From: Anadara kagoshimensis | Taxonomy: Eukaryota > Mollusca > Bivalvia > Arcoida > Arcidae | Direction of reading: 5' to 3' | Length of the DNA: 64,000 nt | Assembly: GCA_021292105.1 (NCBI GenBank) | Contig: CM037861.1 | Location: 52,292,920 to 52,356,919 of the forward strand | Shown here: positions 42,325 to 51,210 of the stretch, in pieces | Layout: the number at the start of each line of letters is the position of its first letter | How positions within the stretch are numbered: position 1 is the first letter of the stretch | Translations under genes and position numbers: made by a program | Notes under the pieces: generated by a model | Told to the model about the DNA's origin: nothing | Seen by the model: only the letters and a program-made list of their open reading frames with translations | The model's database searches: none

Positions 42325-42549
42325 ATGTATTGCCCGGGTCTGGTATATCATTTACGAAAGAAAAGTTTGAATACGTCCAAGATGATAAAACAGCAGTACT
42401 TTTTGGTTACTAACCATTCTGCTTAATTTTACAACCGATGGCACCTTTATGTAGACAAGAAATTGTACCCTTGCAGTACGCAATACTGCTTAAAGACTGG
42501 CATTGACCTGGCATATTTTTCACGAAGGAAAAGTTAGTACACAATATAG
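42325..42549 (+). repeat. ~61-bp satellite, part left of the retrotransposon
   Basis: Degenerate units with 'ctggcatatttttcacgaag', 'gaaaagttagtacacaatat' and 'agtacgcaatactgcttaaa'. The last unit is cut at '...caatatag' by the LTR element. The array resumes at 50428 with 'ctgaaggatttgtattgcc', in register. Confidence 0.85.
42546..42549. repeat. Target-site duplication, left copy (ATAG)
   Basis: ATAG directly before the 5' LTR. The same four bases follow the 3' LTR at 50428-50431. Confidence 0.85.
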
Positions 42550-43086
42550 TGTCACAGGGTGACATAATTAATTAATTAGTTACATAATTAATTAATTACT
42601 TACATCATTTCTTAATAGGGAGTTAATTCTGATACAAAGGCATTAATTAATAACACCATAATGTGTATTGGTAGTTGATTTTTTATTTACTTTGGGCTAA
42701 TATTTTGATAATTATTGGTTGGGAAATATTTCATAAATTTTACTTAAATTCTCCATTAAGTTATAGGTTTTAAAACTTAGTAAATTTAGCAGAAGTCACT
42801 TTATTTTTAAAAGTTCAATAAGTGTGTTATTTCCCTATAGAAATACCATGGTGACCTTACAGTTGTGAGAAATATGTTAATGTCCTAATTTCTTGTATAA
42901 ACATTGACCACAGTACTATTGTTAAAAAGAGGAAATTTATTGAAATTGATACTAAATTTAACTTCTTACTGTACTGGTCAAGCAGTAGTACCTTTGAAGT
43001 GTGGGGGATAGGTAGGGTCAGGTTATTTTGACCCCCATTTTATTAGATTTCATTGGTCAGTAATTTGTGTAGGATGATGGGGATCT

Positions 43087-43095
43087 TATAAAAAG
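43087..43095 (+). promoter_or_regulatory. Candidate LTR TATA box
   Basis: TATAAAAAG in 'gatcttataaaaagaggag', the best TATA-like word in the LTR, ~100 bases before the hairpin array. The identical copy is at ~48818 in the 3' LTR. Confidence 0.5.
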
Positions 43096-43187
43096 AGGAG
43101 TATTTTGGGATTTCAAGAGTCCTCATGTAGAAAATTGGAGTGCTTGGTTCCAATACCTGGTCGCTGGTCCACATGGATTTTACTTAG

Positions 43188-43439
43188 TTTAGCGTTGCCA
43201 GCTAAAATTAATATAGTATTCTAGTGTTACCAGCTAGTGAGTTATATTCTGGTTTATTATGGAATTACTTCGACGCTACCAGTCGAGTTTCATTATATTA
43301 CGACGCTTCCAGTCGTGCCCAAGTGGAATTCGACGTTACCAGTCGAATTTCACTTGCAATTCGGCGAGACCAGTCGATTATCCTATGTTTGTCGATGTGA
43401 CCAGTCGATTTTTGGTATATTTCGACGTGACCAGTCGGA
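43188..43439 (+). repeat. Array of eight stem-loops with constant CCA-ending 7-nt loops
   Basis: Loops start at 43194 (GTTGCCA), 43226 (GTTACCA), 43275 (GCTACCA), 43305 (GCTTCCA), 43335 (GTTACCA), 43366 (GAGACCA), 43397 (GTGACCA) and 43427 (GTGACCA). Each is flanked by 5-8 bp of complementary sequence: TTTAGC/GCTAAA, CTAGT/GCTAG, TCGAC/GTCGA, ACGAC/GTCGT, AATTCGAC/GTCGAATT, TCGGC/GTCGA, TCGAT/GTCGA, TTCGAC/GTCGGA. The last six are spaced 30-31 nt. Paired changes (TCGAC/GTCGA against ACGAC/GTCGT) and G-T pairs keep the stems. The whole array is repeated in the 3' LTR. Confidence 0.88.
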
Positions 43440-43888
43440 TTTCTGTTGGATTGTTTTAATATTTATGGTACTAATCCAAAACATGCGAGGTAACTTTATA
43501 TGTGGTCTGAATTTTGTGTCAATGGGGTCGGGAGCAGTCACATTCTTGTTTAGCAGTCACATTCTTGTTTAGGAGTCAATTTCTTGTTTAGCAGTCATTT
43601 TTCATATTTTTGCCCTATATTCGTGTAGGTATATTTTTGGGGGGTTTATTCATTTTTGAGGTAAAGTAGGTTTTTACTGTTTTTCAGTATTTTCTATTCT
43701 TGTTAAGGTTAAGGAAAGTACAAATAATAGTTTTGATAAGGTTTTGATTATTGGGATTAATAATAGTTTTTGGGAATACTAGTTTACCCTCATTTTTTTT
43801 TATTGTCCCTGAATTAATGCCTTGTTAAGGTTATTTTTCATGAGGAGGAAGTGAGATTTGTAGGCTGAGAGTTGTATATATTTGTGTA

Positions 43889-43894
43889 AATAAA
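43889..43894 (+). terminator. Candidate LTR poly(A) signal
   Basis: AATAAA in 'tgtgtaaataaagttttg'. It would set the R/U5 border about 20 bases later. Confidence 0.45.
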
Positions 43895-44065
43895 GTTTTG
43901 ATCTAGTTTTATAATAAATGTGAATATATGCATTTCATTTCTTACAGTTTTCATTTACTTTAGGGATTAGTTTTAATAAGTGTTGTAGCCTGAATGCTCA
44001 GTATTTTATTTAGATTTATCAGATTTAGAAATTATATTTATATTTGCATTTAAATTTGAGACTTT

Positions 44066-44115
44066 TGTCTTAGTTACCATAAGACAGTAGTGCCAGAATT
44101 CTAGTGACCATAGAA
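44066..44115 (+). repeat. Two further LTR stem-loops of the same type
   Basis: 7-bp stem TGTCTTA/TAAGACA with loop GTTACCA (44066-44086), then stem TTCTA/TAGAA with loop GTGACCA (44099-44115). Both stems are perfect and unrelated in sequence to the upstream array. Confidence 0.85.
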
Positions 44116-44695
44116 GGCACTGGTATCAAATTTATATGGTTAATTTAATACACAAAATTCATATAAATAATTTTTACTGATTTTTGGCATAATTGATTAT
44201 ATTAAAATTTCGAGTTATACTTGAGCATTCAGATAACAGCCCTTGTTTGTGAGTAAGATTCATCTTTGGATTTCTGATTTTATTGAGTCCCTTAATTTTG
44301 GTTGAGTTTAGCTGAATATATGCACTTGATCTAGTGTCATTATCTTGGTAATTGAGTTTTATAATCAGTATCTGAACTGACAGAACAGAAATAGATCAAT
44401 TCAAGCTATACTGGCTTGCGGATTCACGCACGTTGAGTTCTTGTTCCTCTTTTGAGGTGGTGGCAGCTTTTACCTTTTGTTGTTTTGCTTGAGTCGTGTA
44501 CTCGGCGGTTATTGAACTCAACACTCTGTTGCTCGGTACACGTGATTTGACGTTGTCCTGAACCTTTACTTCCAAGCTAGATACTCGGAGATAGAACCAC
44601 ACCATCTGGCTTCGGTCGTTTAGGTTAGGATTTCGCCAAACTGTGAGAGGAGGTTTATCCTATATATAGGAATGAAACCTCCAATCCTGCCACAG

Positions 44696-44713
44696 TGGTG
44701 GCAGCGGTGGGAT
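44696..44713 (+). promoter_or_regulatory. Primer binding site, tRNA-Leu type
   Basis: TGGTGGCAGCGGTGGGAT, one base after the 5' LTR. Its reverse complement ends in CCACCGCTGCCACCA, the 3' end (with CCA) of animal tRNA-Leu of the AAG/UAG type as I know it. Confidence 0.85.
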
Positions 44714-44766
44714 AAATTGGTTGATTTATTTATTTGTTTGTTTCTGGCAGTTAAGTGTTTTTTTTG

Positions 44767-44785
44767 TATCTCGTTACCAGAGATA
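44767..44785 (+). repeat. Leader stem-loop with GTTACCA loop
   Basis: Perfect 6-bp stem TATCTC/GAGATA around loop GTTACCA, 54 bases after the primer binding site. This is a typical place for packaging signals in retroelements. Confidence 0.85.
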
Positions 44786-44929
44786 TCTGATGTTTTGTGA
44801 TTTTAGGTGAAATTTGCATTGTTAAGGAAGTTTTTCTATAGGTTGTTTTATACAGCAGGGTTTTTGTTAGGTTGATTTTTTTTCGGGGTTGTTTTGTGTA
44901 ATAGGGAACCAAGACATTTTGATTAGATT

Positions 44930-45064
44930 ATGGATTCTGATAGGGATCATACTTATACCCGACAGGTATTGGAACCAACCACGACTGCTCCCTTGACCAA
45001 AAATTGGTCTCGGTCACCCATCGTTTCCCAGCCACAGAAGGTTTGTTGGTGGGACACTAAGTAG
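44930..45064 (+). pseudogene. Short frame after the leader, possible gag remnant
   Basis: ATG-initiated 44-codon frame (MDSDRDHTYTRQVLEPTTTA..., ending WWDTK, stop TAG). It is the first substantial frame after the primer binding site. The following ~300 bases read as a peptide with several stops (e.g. KRLVKQLEESEKAPHSHSSK). I recognise no domain. Calling it gag rests on position only. Confidence 0.35.
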
Positions 45065-45314
45065 GGAATTTATTTTTGGGGTTAAGCCCACTCAAACATT
45101 TGATGATGTTGACAAAGGCACTGATTACGTTCAGCCAATCTGTGGCAACTCTTCTATCAAGAATTCATTTTAAAAGGGAATAAACGGCTCGTGAAGCAAC
45201 TGGAGGAGAGTGAAAAGGCGCCTCACTCTCACTCTAGTAAAAGAGCAATGACAAGTTAGTCGGCACAACTGGCTAATTAAGAAGAGTTATATAGATTGGT
45301 TGAGATGGGAACAT

Positions 45315-45334
45315 GCATTCAATTACCAGAATGC
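45315..45334 (+). repeat. Stem-loop, 8-nt loop AATTACCA
   Basis: Perfect 6-bp stem GCATTC/GAATGC. The loop ends in TTACCA as in the 7-nt versions. Confidence 0.75.
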
Positions 45335-45621
45335 CCATTGTCTAATAAATGATGACATAGCAAACGACAGATTATAAACAAATTTAGGTGGTATTGTTTA
45401 TAACAGTGTTTGGTTTTAGGTTATATGATTTTACCTGTTAGCTTTATGCCAAAGTTAAGGTTGACTAAATGTAGGCTGTTTTGCTTACTAAAGTTTTAGG
45501 TTATTAGTGTATTTGGTTTATTGGTCATTTTTGGGGAAGATAATTTCACCAGAAGATGGTAATAAGTGGAATTTAGTTCTTGGTTATGATTTGGAAGAGC
45601 CAGTCCAGAAAATTCTGAAGT

Positions 45622-45640
45622 CTAGTAGTGACCATACTAG
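45622..45640 (+). repeat. Stem-loop with GTGACCA loop
   Basis: Perfect 6-bp stem CTAGTA/TACTAG around GTGACCA. Confidence 0.8.
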
Positions 45641-45777
45641 TGAAGAATGGATCTAATGTCATGTATAGTCCACAAACATGGCGAGGTTTAGATATAGTCA
45701 CCTCTCCTTTGTTTTTTGTTTTTTTTTTTGTGTATAAAGCATTTATGGTGAAGGGTTTAGTTTTAGTTTTAGTTTTT

Positions 45778-45794
45778 GAGATGCTACCAATCTC
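45778..45794 (+). repeat. Stem-loop with GCTACCA loop
   Basis: Perfect 5-bp stem GAGAT/ATCTC around GCTACCA. Confidence 0.8.
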
Positions 45795-46502
45795 TGATTG
45801 TTTTTTTAGGGTATTTCTTATTAGACTTGGTTAGTTGTTTAGCTTAAAGTAGTTATTTGGTTGTATAAATATATACCTTAATCATTTTAGTTCACGTTGT
45901 AATACACAGAGTGTGTTGTATTGCATTAAGTGAATTTTGTTTTAGTATTTTGGGTTAATGGTGAATGAGTACACTGGAAATTGTGAAGATATTTGACGTA
46001 CAGTGGATGTTGTCAGAGGATTGACTACTTTTAGAATTTGTATTAGAAGTCAGGGTGTTACTTCTGAATACTTTTCAATTCTTGTTAGTGAAATCAACAT
46101 GGTGTTTTGTTGGAGGTGTTTTGAAGTGTTGTGTTTGTAGTATACATGATTCGTGCCCCTAGTGAGGTTTCTGAGGGGATAGACCCGCGTTTTGGTCCCT
46201 AAATTTGCTTGAAAACTTTGTTTCGGTCAACTGCATTCAATGTAGTTTTACTTTGCTCTATAGACGTATAGATGCAAGTATTCTAAATTTGGCTAATCAA
46301 TAATCTTCTATTCCCTTAGGTGACAGAGTAATGTTTGTTACTGGAATGTTTTGTTTTCTCTCTCACCTGGACAAGATGGTCAAATTAGAATTACATTATG
46401 CAAGCGTTATGTGGTTGCGACTATGTCGTGCCATGGTTTGTGGGGAAAGTCGATTAGTTAATTTGGTTGGCAGGTCAAGTGAAGCCAAGACCCCCTATCC
46501 CG

Positions 46503-46521
46503 CATGTTGCTACCAAACATG
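46503..46521 (+). repeat. Stem-loop with GCTACCA loop
   Basis: Perfect 6-bp stem CATGTT/AACATG around GCTACCA. Confidence 0.82.
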
Positions 46522-46548
46522 GTTTTTTTTTTTTTGGTTGTTGTTTTT

Positions 46549-46624
46549 CCTCGACCGGGTCACATGGGTTGATGTCCGTGAGGTTTGCCTCGACCGGGTC
46601 ACATGGGTTGATGTCCGTGAGGTT
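46549..46624 (+). repeat. Two 37-bp direct repeats
   Basis: 'cctcgaccgggtcacatggg' followed by 'ttgatgtccgtgaggtt' occurs twice with a 39-bp period (46549 and 46588). Confidence 0.9.
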
Positions 46625-46685
46625 ATAAGTCCGTCAGTATGGGACGGCAATGCTTAGGATTGGCCATCCTAAGAACCAGGGAAGG

Positions 46686-47400
46686 GTGTAATTTAAACCC
46701 TGGTAATCATGAATTGTTGTAATGCTGATTTCAGTCTCAAGTATTTACCAGAATGTCAGGAAACATTCGGGAAGTGTTTTACATTGTGTTTTGTGCGTCA
46801 TCCTCCTTTATGACAGCTGTCGTCAAGGTCAAAGTTCGTGTACAATAAAATATCTTGCTAATAGTTGGGAAAAAGTAAATATTTTTGGTTATAGAGAAAT
46901 GTAGTTTAGAAATTAACAATCCTTCAGGTGTAATGTAAACCCTGGTAATCATGAATTGTTGTAATGCTGATTTCAGTCTCAAGTATTTACCAGAATGGCA
47001 GGAAACATTCGGGAAACGTTAAACTTTGTGTTTTGTGCGTCATCCTTTTTTTGACAGCTGTCGTCAAGTTCCGTGTACAATAAAATATCTTGCTAATAGT
47101 TAGGGAAAGGTAAAATATTTTGGTAATATTGAGAAATGTAGTTTGGAAATTTAACATCCCTTCAGGTGTAATGTAAACCCTGGTAATTTTGTACGTATTG
47201 TAATGCTGATTTCAGTCTCAAGTATTTACCAGAATGGCAGGAAACATTCGGGAAACATTATACTTTGTGTTTTGTGCGTCATCCTCCTTTATGACAGCTG
47301 TCGTCAAGTTCTGTGTACAATAAATATCTTGCTAATAGTTGGGAAAAGGTAAAATATTTTGGTTATATTGGGGGACTATGTATGGAAATTAATTTCCTTA
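46686..47400 (+). repeat. ~240-bp tandem repeat, three units
   Basis: The word 'gtgtaatgtaaaccctggta' (first copy 'gtgtaatttaaacc') starts at 46686, 46928 and 47166. Each unit has 'gctgatttcagtctcaagta', 'ggaaacattcgggaa' and 'tgacagctgtcgtcaag'. Each also has a CTGGTAA...TTACCAG dyad about 45 bases apart. Non-coding. Confidence 0.9.
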
Positions 47401-47499
47401 CAAGTTACAGTTGTAGAGTTCAAAGGTTGTATATGATTGGATTGATTTCTTTTCTCCCTATTTTTTTATGAAAAAATTTTCTTGAGAATTGTTTTAAAA

Positions 47500-47517
47500 T
47501 TCATTTTTACCAATGAA
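47500..47517 (+). repeat. Stem-loop with 8-nt TTTTACCA loop
   Basis: Perfect 5-bp stem TTCAT/ATGAA around a loop ending in TTACCA, shortly before the 58-59-bp minisatellite. Confidence 0.65.
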
Positions 47518-47529
47518 GCTGAATAGACC

Positions 47530-47920
47530 ATGTCAGCTGGTGCTACCGACCAGTGAGCCTGGTGTACCATATAGATGGCGTAGAAACATGGGAACTGGTG
47601 TTACCAACCAGTGAGACTGGCGCACCACATAGTTGGCGAAGAAACCGTGAGAACTGGTGTTACCAACCAGTGTGTCTGGTGTACCACATAGATGGCGAAG
47701 AAACCATGGGAACTGGTGTTACCAACCAGTGAGCCTGGTGTACCACATAGTTGGCGAAGAAACATGGGAACTGGTGTTACCAACCAGTGAGCCTGGTGTA
47801 CCACATAGTTGGCGAAGAAACATGGGAACTGGTGTTACCAACCAGTGAGTCTGGCGTTACCAGCTAAGACTCGTCCAGCCCCGACCAGTGCTTCGGTGGT
47901 TGACGTTTCCAGTCAAATTA
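47530..47920 (+). repeat. 58-59-bp minisatellite built on the GTTACCA stem-loop
   Basis: Six units start with stem CTGGT at 47537, 47595, 47654, 47713, 47771 and 47829. Each reads CTGGT, loop GTTACCA (GCTACCG in the first), ACCAG, then 'gtgagcctggtgtaccacat' and 'agttggcgaagaaac'. Two more stem-loops follow: one with loop GTTACCA at 47856-47862 (outer stem AGTCT/AGACT) and TTGAC/GTCAA with GTTTCCA at 47900-47916. The open frames on both strands here are repeat translations. Confidence 0.9.
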
Positions 47921-48268
47921 TTTTATTTTATTTCAGGTTTTTAATTTTTTCAGGCATATGGTAAATGGTAAAAGAAAAGGCAAAGAATCGCGTGGTAAAA
48001 TAAGGTTAAGTCCATGAATAGTGATCACTTGGACACTATTCTTTTTATTTCTCAATGAAAATGTGAAAGTTTAAATTTCTTCTTAATGTTTCCATAAAGA
48101 TAAGTCGTTATGACACTAATAGTGCATCACTTGGACACTATTATTTTAATGTTTGTGTTTTGAACTTCAACTTTTGAATCTATGGTGAGAGAGCAATTGC
48201 GTGTGAGATTATTATTCAGGTAATTGTACATGTATTATACTTGTTAAGTTCGGGTCGAACTTTTATTT

Positions 48269-48280
48269 GGTAGGGGGTAG
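48269..48280 (+). promoter_or_regulatory. Polypurine tract
   Basis: GGTAGGGGGTAG directly before the 3' LTR, the plus-strand primer position in LTR elements. It has two T interruptions, so the working tract may be AGGGGG. Confidence 0.75.
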
Positions 48281-50427
48281 TGTCACAGGGTGACATAATT
48301 AATTAATTAGTTACATAATTAATTAATTACTTACATCATTTCTTAATAGGGAGTTAATTCTGATACAAAGGCATTAATTAATAACACCATAATGTGTATT
48401 GGTAGTTGATTTTTTATTTACTTTGGGCTAATATTTTGATAATTATTGGTTGGGAAATATTTCATAAATTTTACTTAAATTCTCCATTAAGTTATAGGTT
48501 TTAAAACTTAGTAAATTTAGCAGAAGTCACTTTATTTTTAAAAGTTCAATAAGTGTGTTATTTCCCTATAGAAATACCATGGTGACCTTACAGTTGTGAG
48601 AAATATGTTAATGTCCTAATTTCTTGTATAAACATTGACCACAGTACTATTGTTAAAAAGAGGAAATTTATTGAAATTGATACTAAATTTAACTTCTTAC
48701 TGTACTGGTCAAGCAGTAGTACCTTTGAAGTGTGGGGGATAGGTAGGGTCAGGTTATTTTGACCCCCATTTTATTAGATTTCATTGGTCAGTAATTTGTG
48801 TAGGATGATGGGGATCTTATAAAAAGAGGAGTATTTTGGGATTTCAAGAGTCCTCATGTAGAAAATTGGAGTGCTTGGTTCCAATACCTGGTCGCTGGTC
48901 CACATGGATTTTACTTAGTTTAGCGTTGCCAGCTAAAATTAATATAGTATTCTAGTGTTACCAGCTAGTGAGTTATATTCTGGTTTATTATGGAATTACT
49001 TCGACGCTACCAGTCGAGTTTCATTATATTACGACGCTTCCAGTCGTGCCCAAGTGGAATTCGACGTTACCAGTCGAATTTCACTTGCAATTCGGCGAGA
49101 CCAGTCGATTATCCTATGTTTGTCGATGTGACCAGTCGATTTTTGGTATATTTCGACGTGACCAGTCGGATTTCTGTTGGATTGTTTTAATATTTATGGT
49201 ACTAATCCAAAACATGCGAGGTAACTTTATATGTGGTCTGAATTTTGTGTCAATGGGGTCGGGAGCAGTCACATTCTTGTTTAGCAGTCACATTCTTGTT
49301 TAGGAGTCAATTTCTTGTTTAGCAGTCATTTTTCATATTTTTGCCCTATATTCGTGTAGGTATATTTTTGGGGGGTTTATTCATTTTTGAGGTAAAGTAG
49401 GTTTTTACTGTTTTTCAGTATTTTCTATTCTTGTTAAGGTTAAGGAAAGTACAAATAATAGTTTTGATAAGGTTTTGATTATTGGGATTAATAATAGTTT
49501 TTGGGAATACTAGTTTACCCTCATTTTTTTTATTGTCCCTGAATTAATGCCTTGTTAAGGTTATTTTTCATGAGGAGGAAGTGAGATTTGTAGGCTGAGA
49601 GTTGTATATATTTGTGTAAATAAAGTTTTGATCTAGTTTTATAATAAATGTGAATATATTGCATTTCATTTCTTACAGTTTTCATTTACTTTAGGGATTA
49701 GTTTTAATAAGTGTTGTAGCCTGAATGCTCAGTATTTTATTTAGATTTATCAGATTTAGAAATTATATTTATATTTGCATTTAAATTTGAGACTTTTGTC
49801 TTAGTTACCATAAGACAGTAGTGCCAGAATTCTAGTGACCATAGAAGGCACTGGTATCAAATTTATATGGTTAATTTAATACACAAAATTCATATAAAGT
49901 AATTTTTACTGATTTTTGGCATAATTGATTATATTAAAATTTCGAGTTATACTTGAGCATTCAGATAACAGCCCTTGTTTGTGAGTAAGAGTTCATCTTT
50001 GGATTTCTGATTTTATTGAGTCCCTTAATTTTGGTTGAGTTTAGCTGAATATATGCACTTGATCTAGTGTCATTATCTTGGTAATTGAGTTTTATAATCA
50101 GTATCTGAACTGACAGAACAGAAATAGATCAATTCAAGCTATACTGGCTTGCGGATTCACGCACGTTGAGTTCTTGTTCCTCTTTTGAGGTGGTGGCAGC
50201 TTTTACCTTTTGTTGTTTTGCTTGAGTCGTGTACTCGGCGGTTATTGAACTCAACACTCTGTTGCTCGGTACACGTGATTTGACGTTGTCCTGAACCTTT
50301 ACTTCCAAGCTAGATACTCGGAGATAGAACCACACCATCTGGCTTCGGTCGTTTAGGTTAGGATTTCGCCAAACTGTGAGAGGAGGTTTATCCTATATAT
50401 AGGAATGAAACCTCCAATCCTGCCACA
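48281..50427 (+). repeat. 3' LTR (2147 bp)
   Basis: Same start and end as the 5' LTR. The differences I found are one T fewer in the run near 49524, and single extra bases near 49660 ('atatattgcat'), 49898 ('cataaagtaatt') and 49990 ('gtaagagttcat'). These account exactly for the 2-bp length difference. Confidence 0.93.
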
Positions 50428-51210
50428 ATAGCTGAAGGATTTGTATTGCCTTGGCATGTTATTCACGCAGGAAAAGTTAGTACACAATATTGCTGAATGA
50501 CTTGTGTTGCCCTGGCATATTATTCACGAAGGGAAAGTTAGTACGCAATATAGCTGAAGGACTTGTATTGTCCTGGCATGTTATTTACGCAGGAAAAGTT
50601 AGTACACAATAATGCTGAATGACTTGTATTGCCCTGGCATATTATTCACGAAGGGAAAGTCAGAACGCAATATAGGTGAAGGACTGGTATTGCCCTGGTA
50701 TATTATTCACGAAGGGAAAGTTAGTACGCAATATAGGTGAAGGATTGGTATTGCCCTGGCACATTATTCACGAAGGGAAAGTTAGTACGCAATATAGGTG
50801 AAGGACTGGTATGGTATTAACCTTGCATATCATTCACCAAGGAAAGGTTAGTACGCAATATAGCTGAAGGATTTGGATAATCCTGGCATGTTATTCACGA
50901 AGGAAAAGTTAGTACGCAATATAGCTGAAGGACTTGTATTGTCCTAGCATTTCATTCACGAAGGAAAATTTGTACGCAATATAGCTGAAGGTCTTGTGTG
51001 ATCCTGGCATATTATTCACGAAGGAAAAGTTAGTACAATATATAGCTGAAGCTGTCTTATATTAAAAAAGGAAACGTTTGTACGAAATATAGCTTAAGGG
51101 CTGGTATTGTCTTGGCATATTTTTCAAGAAGGAAAAATAAGTACGCAATACAGCTTAAAGACTTGCATTGTCCTGACATTATTCACGAAGGAAAAATGTG
51201 ATTACAACTA
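50428..51210 (+). repeat. ~61-bp satellite, part right of the retrotransposon
   Basis: About 12 units of the form 'agctgaaggacttgtattg', 'tcctggcatattattcacga', 'aggaaaagttagtacgcaat'. Units vary at single sites, some with a shorter centre. Non-coding. The first four bases (ATAG) are the right target duplication of the LTR element. Confidence 0.92.

Follow-up and report, generated by a model that had tools for sequence, protein, structure and literature searches.

Dispersed CCA-loop stem-loops in a non-autonomous Gypsy-type retrotransposon as a candidate packaging signal for Gag

RNA choice by long terminal repeat (LTR) retrotransposons is poorly known. In retroviruses and in Ty1, a cis-acting RNA structure (Psi, or the Ty1 5' packaging pseudoknot) is thought to let Gag select the RNA; in vitro, Ty1 Gag shows high affinity and little specificity, accepting many RNAs, and prefers the packaging signal only in competition (PMC8396678, in part). 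In single-stranded RNA viruses of the MS2 type, packaging signals are dispersed as many stem-loops that share a short loop motif and vary elsewhere, and contact with the capsid protein has been proposed; the part of that source consulted does not extend the model to retrotransposons (PMC6281560). Here we describe a 64,000-nucleotide window of the Anadara kagoshimensis genome (GenBank assembly GCA_021292105.1, contig CM037861.1, forward-strand positions 52,292,920 to 52,356,919), in which an LTR retrotransposon at 42550-50427 likewise carries about 25 sense-strand hairpins with a common loop of 7-8 nt, ending in CCA in nearly all of them. Positions are those of the window unless a locus is named.

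The element has a near-identical LTR pair, a target duplication, a primer-binding site (PBS) and a polypurine tract (PPT). Its longest stop-to-stop frame is 117 aa and it has no gag-pol reading frames, so it is non-autonomous. The hairpins form a selected structure of the sense RNA that, within this genome, goes with one Gag clade and is retained in gene-free copies; selection is indicated because stems at a protease site are compensated between families and because shared stem changes all keep pairing. We regard it as an even call whether this non-autonomous member of the Gypsy-type (Metaviridae-like) elements uses its 20-30 dispersed stem-loops, with CCA end and free stems, as a packaging signal read by Gag.

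Sense-strand hairpins and their conservation

Stems were counted from 5 pairs upwards, with G-T permitted. Under this rule, 20 of the 27 sense-strand G..[ATG]CCA words are held in stems (10/11 in the 5' LTR and 10/16 in the interior), against 0/16 on the antisense strand (0/7 and 0/9, respectively) and 3/164 on both strands of the rest of the window. Dinucleotide shuffling of the 5' LTR plus interior (1000 shuffles) gave a mean of 0.155 hairpins and a maximum of 2, so the dense stem-loops reported in an initial annotation of this DNA are real. Loops of 8 nt ending in TTACCA were observed twice (shuffled mean 0.025, maximum 1). When perfect hairpins were searched without regard to the loop sequence (stem of at least 6, loop of 4-9), 11 of the 30 in the element ended in ACCA; outside the element, the commonest four-base loop end accounted for 9 of 194.

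A narrower pattern, GYKDCCA, was defined post hoc from the sites themselves. It lies in stems of at least 5 pairs for 19 of 21 sense words, 0/6 antisense words and 0/40 words outside the element (0/17 and 0/23). Both patterns bear out the initial annotation in its statement that the sites read in the sense direction, and almost none of these words elsewhere in the window lies in a stem. All 21 GYKDCCA words, taken with no stem selection and comprising 17 distinct sequences, had 91.2% of cells paired and scored 1.056 for covariation, compared with 0.284 for shuffled and 0.045-0.184 for slid controls, in agreement with the proposal that stem sequence is free while structure is kept. Local pairing predicted in sequence context was uneven over 26 sites, with mean probabilities from 0.03 to 0.96.

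Copies were sought in 1.1 Gb of genome sequence (36 contigs). The first 1000 bases of the element gave at least 42 matches of 76-100% identity (40 of 56 candidates scored), and the interior piece 45850-46500 gave 17. Twenty stretches were analyzed, comprising near-complete copies and stretches where only one LTR was found. Antisense GYKDCCA hairpins numbered zero in all 20; the looser G...CCA pattern gave antisense hairpins in two (L026, 2/21; L031, 1/20). One of the copies, L019/L020, is a tandem element pair, with three LTRs 5.3 kb apart and two shared interiors.

Fourteen hairpins were tracked across six short pieces of 8 to 27 rows. Each row had to cover 90% of its piece, and the most diverged LTR arrays are therefore absent from the comparison. 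Because the LTR pair of one element makes two rows, a threshold of at least three rows was meant to skip single insertions. The hairpins show 28 different stem changes: those present in at least three rows keep pairing in 9/9 cases, while those in one or two rows keep it in 6/19 and break it in 13/19 (Fisher p = 0.0008). Changes of one stem side alone had been named in advance as evidence against a kept structure, and breaks are seen only among the rarer changes. This is the pattern to be expected if stems are selected while the lineage is active and decay once a copy has inserted. Within the loop, CCA is near constant (0.0099 differences per row pair) and differs 8 times less among copies than the N positions (0.0793), whereas the first base (0.0757) is free to vary like the N positions. 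The loop originally written as G-N-N-[A/T/G]-C-C-A thus stands in its CCA end and not in its leading G.

Gag clades, compensated stems and gene-bearing relatives

A Gag search of the genome gave at least 91 matches (90 of 629 candidates scored), 30 of which were analyzed as loci of 3.5-4.4 kb (L034-L063). A single rule applied to all of them counts 50 CCA hairpins on the sense strand and 1 on the antisense strand, with repeated copies in the tally. Thirteen loci, forming families A, B and C, had been labelled hairpin-bearing before the Gag tree was built; in the tree (midpoint root, one row short), they fall on one side of a branch with support 95/91. Families B and C thus belong to the same Gag clade as A, and their CCA-loop hairpins have different stems. 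Loops in the other families sometimes read CCCA or lack the G. Representatives were taken at one to three per family, 13 of the 30 loci in total (4/13 from the hairpin clade and 9/17 from its sister). In the hairpin clade, G...CCA words lie in hairpins in 18/70 sense and 0/50 antisense cases, and in the sister clade in 2/134 and 1/110, respectively. Since sister elements in the same host are largely without hairpins, a reader borne by the element fits better than a general host need. A CCHC knuckle was found in 22 of the 30 loci and none was found in 8. In families A, B and C it has HMR or HIR, and most sister loci have HW or HF; the exceptions are L059, with HCS, and the hairpin-free L060, with HLR. 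This difference of knuckle type, read from sequence, is a single phylogenetic contrast and no proof of reading by Gag.

The protease site, aligned for 27 of the 30 loci, provides a direct comparison between families A and B, which share 37-49% Gag identity. Family A has GAGCTT-GCAACCA-AAGCTC and family B has AAGTTC-CAGACCA-GAACTT in the same codon columns with no gap; both form 6/6 pairs; three of these differ on both sides between the families, and no pair is lost. Family C, whose loop letters are those of B, forms 2/6 pairs, and the other eight distinct sequences form 1 to 5 of 6 (the best being L060, whose loop ends in CCT). With gaps placed manually, two pairs are changed on both sides in the pro/RT stretch (CTAGTA-GTGACCA-TACTAG versus AAAGTA-GCCACCA-TACTTT; RT, reverse transcriptase), and two at a gag site (TCAGC-GCAACCA-GCTGA versus TATGC-RACACCA-GCATA). 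Near-exclusive sense orientation, covariation between sites, pair-keeping changes in copies and compensation between families together uphold the original idea of an RNA structure repeated along the transcript.

The gene-bearing relative with the same stem-loops that the initial annotation had predicted was found, in the form of two relatives, each about 11 kb long, one in L014 and L015 and the other in L016 and L017. L014 encodes a CCHC Gag, protease, RT, RNase H and integrase in the PR-RT-RNaseH-IN order of Ty3/Gypsy (Metaviridae-like) elements; the frames of L016 match, and pol is spread over several frames in both. Hairpins are located in the LTR, leader, gag, protease, pro/RT stretch and 3' part, numbering 29 sense and 2 antisense in L014 plus L015 with flanks included. 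The window element retains a piece resembling the start of the relative's gag (73% identity) and is without most of gag-pol. Identity between the two changes in blocks from 73 to 99%, which suggests recombination, as would be expected if the RNAs were co-packaged and recombining. Downstream of pol there is a third open reading frame (ORF) of 138 aa (L015 333-749; also in L017), which had no Pfam match. Its C-terminal part has genome relatives in frames of up to 516 aa near many Gag loci, and, by comparison of coordinates, several of these relatives follow Gag matches of both clades at a distance of a few kb.

Searches of other collections were also made. Rfam gave no match at gathering score within the window, and a phage collection gave none. 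Viral contigs contained no Gag relative, and their only RT relative was one distant locus (L064, 32% identity). Scanning viral contigs with two hairpin strings gave five stretches with 7 to 35 words, of which 0 to 3 per strand were hairpins; these were judged to be chance because hairpins per strand were few and formed no run.

Layout of the element

The element is flanked by the target-site duplication ATAG (42546-42549 and 50428-50431), and a 61-bp tandem repeat surrounds it (42467-42546 and 50428-51197). All features that follow are on the forward strand. The 5' LTR (42550-44694, TGTCAC...GCCACA) has a TATA box at 43087 and AATAAA at 43889 and 43913, and the 3' LTR (48281-50427) has the same 10 hairpins, with loops from 48925 to 49835. 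Four single-base indels separate the two LTRs, which show no substitution, and the insertion is therefore young or homogenised. The PBS TGGTGGCAGCGGTGGG (44696-44711) is presumably tRNA-Leu-like, and the PPT is GGTAGGGGGTAG (48269-48280). At 44446-44467, close to where the LTR ends on its 3' side, a small CCTC/GAGG hairpin precedes TGGTGGCAGC, which matches the true PBS in its first ten bases. The same combination occurs at L034 949, L044 738 and L042 460, in three families whose LTRs are otherwise diverged, and is perhaps a PBS-like decoy or a contact for the primer tRNA.

Eight of the LTR hairpins form a row at 43188-43439, about 100-350 nt downstream of the TATA box and mostly spaced by about 30 nt (loops from 43194, 43226, 43275, 43305, 43335, 43366, 43397 and 43427). 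The other two are tgtcttaGTTACCAtaagaca (44065-44087, including an outer T-G pair) and ttctaGTGACCAtagaa (44099-44115). The leader hairpin gtatctcGTTACCAgagatat (44766-44786) has a loop that begins 77 nt past the PBS start. It is followed by gcattcAATTACCAgaatgc (45315-45334, 8-nt loop), the imperfect ttagcttTATGCCAaagttaa (45438-45458, with a GATGCCA or GATACCA loop in 8/9 copies), ctagtaGTGACCAtactag (45622-45640, identical to a hairpin within an ORF of the gene-bearing relative), gagatGCTACCAatctc (45778-45794), catgttGCTACCAaacatg (46503-46521), cttaggaTTGGCCAtcctaag (46653-46673) and ttcatTTTTACCAatgaa (47500-47517, 8-nt loop, poorly kept among copies). Sites at 45445 and 46660 are likely additions to those first listed. 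Six CTGGT/ACCAG hairpins form a tandem array at 47537-47846; all six stems that had been noted are present, and five loops read GTTACCA, while the first, at 47542, is GCTACCG and so ends in CCG. The hairpin around GTTACCA at 47856 (47847-47872) is imperfect, as had been described, with 4 pairs beside the loop and a longer stem only if an A is bulged. The last is ttgacGTTTCCAgtcaa (47900-47916). Before the PPT, a second type of repeated hairpin is present as gaatagtgATCACTTGGAcactattc (48016-48041) and taatagtgCATCACTTGGAcactatta (48117-48143); their outer pair differs on both sides, and one or both are found in several copies.

Candidate readers and comparison with described systems

In the proposed mechanism, the clade's Gag would bind each loop weakly, through its CCHC knuckle or its capsid, and many sites together would mark the RNA for packaging. 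Gene-free RNA could then still be packaged and copied by a partner's proteins. A broader version, which we put forward only tentatively, is a distributed code belonging to one Gypsy Gag clade: dozens of CCA-loop hairpins in LTR, leader, coding and 3' regions would form the packaging mark, the reader (perhaps the His-Met/Ile-Arg knuckle) would co-evolve with it, and RNAs that keep the hairpins would be mobilised in trans.

Several observations weigh against reading by Gag. Retroviral nucleocapsids usually prefer exposed G, whereas the conserved part here is CCA. Stems differ just slightly less among copies than the rest of the sequence (0.036 versus 0.046), several hairpins are predicted to be weak in sequence context, and no hairpin was found between L014 4980 and 8122, which is mostly pol. 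The sister clade is not free of hairpins: L053 has 3 CCA hairpins on the sense strand and none on the antisense strand, L059 has one of 11 pairs, and L046-L049 and L058 have one each with an 8-nt loop ending in CCA. Homology between A and B at the gag and pro/RT sites depends on gaps inserted by hand; BLAST breaks the pro/RT site with a gap of two codons for L036 and L037, and offsets the gag sites by five codons. Restriction to one Gag clade fits any clade-specific factor, or loss in the sister clade, equally.

The main rival is a host RNA-binding protein that binds the loops and exports, stabilises or localises the element RNA, like the constitutive transport elements (CTEs) of simple retroviruses. 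Host RRM or KH proteins commonly recognise a loop within a stem, and dispersed, sense-strand, structure-selected sites retained in gene-free copies fit such a protein; the need cannot be general, however, as hairpins are nearly absent from the sister Gag clade of this genome, and the rest of the window is not enriched in them. We consider this explanation somewhat unlikely. The YBX1 motif UUACCAUC resembles the loop but is given without stem context (PMC10403220, in part). Mimicry of the tRNA 3' end by the loop NCCA, and pairing of loop and PBS, were set aside, CCA alone being in common.

A different step encoded by the element, namely RNA dimerisation, reverse transcription or binding of the third-ORF product, appears improbable. 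Strand transfer also needs terminal RNA structures, and the 138-aa ORF lies 3' of pol with C-terminal relatives near many Gag loci, but by coordinates that ORF also follows gag in hairpin-poor families, and the common loop end would be too short for stable loop-loop pairing. An origin at the DNA level, through cruciforms, palindrome-making template switches or tandem duplication, is very improbable. Template switching can produce perfect stems, and one tandem array (47537-47862) and one regular row (43188-43439) are present; against this, the loop is conserved on one strand only, the 21 words comprise 17 distinct sequences, sense G-T pairs occur yet no pair-breaking change is found in three or more rows, and changes are compensated at homologous codons between families.

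A literature search, mostly of freely accessible journals, found no LTR element described with such hairpins. RsmZ/CsrA-type RNAs, which are bacterial regulatory RNAs, have repeated hairpins with a common GGA loop that bind one multivalent protein; they are alike in the repeated common-loop hairpins and differ in the loop, and no relation is claimed. The retroviral export elements, CTE and the Rev response element, are each one local element, in contrast to the dispersed repeats here. They likewise represent RNA structure required by retroelement RNA (PMC4829213, in part). Terminal-repeat retrotransposons in miniature (TRIMs) and large retrotransposon derivatives (LARDs) likewise have LTRs and no genes, TRIMs being small with a short interior (bivalve TRIMs: PMC6934838, in part). 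The present system offers a ready test of mark and reader: the repeated loop is clear, the stems are free, gene-free copies occur naturally, and sister families poor in hairpins share the host. While the Psi and Ty1 structures lie near the 5' end (PMC8396678, in part), 20-30 separate hairpins are distributed here over the LTR, leader, gag/protease and 3' region. As in dispersed packaging signals, many stem-loops have a common loop and variable stems, and the structure is conserved in evolution; MS2-type signals belong to RNA viruses, whereas here the carrier is an LTR retrotransposon, the loop ends in CCA and the contact would be Gag. If Gag is the reader, retroelements would join RNA viruses in having dispersed packaging signals; if it is not, the hairpins would reveal a host protein exploited by these elements.

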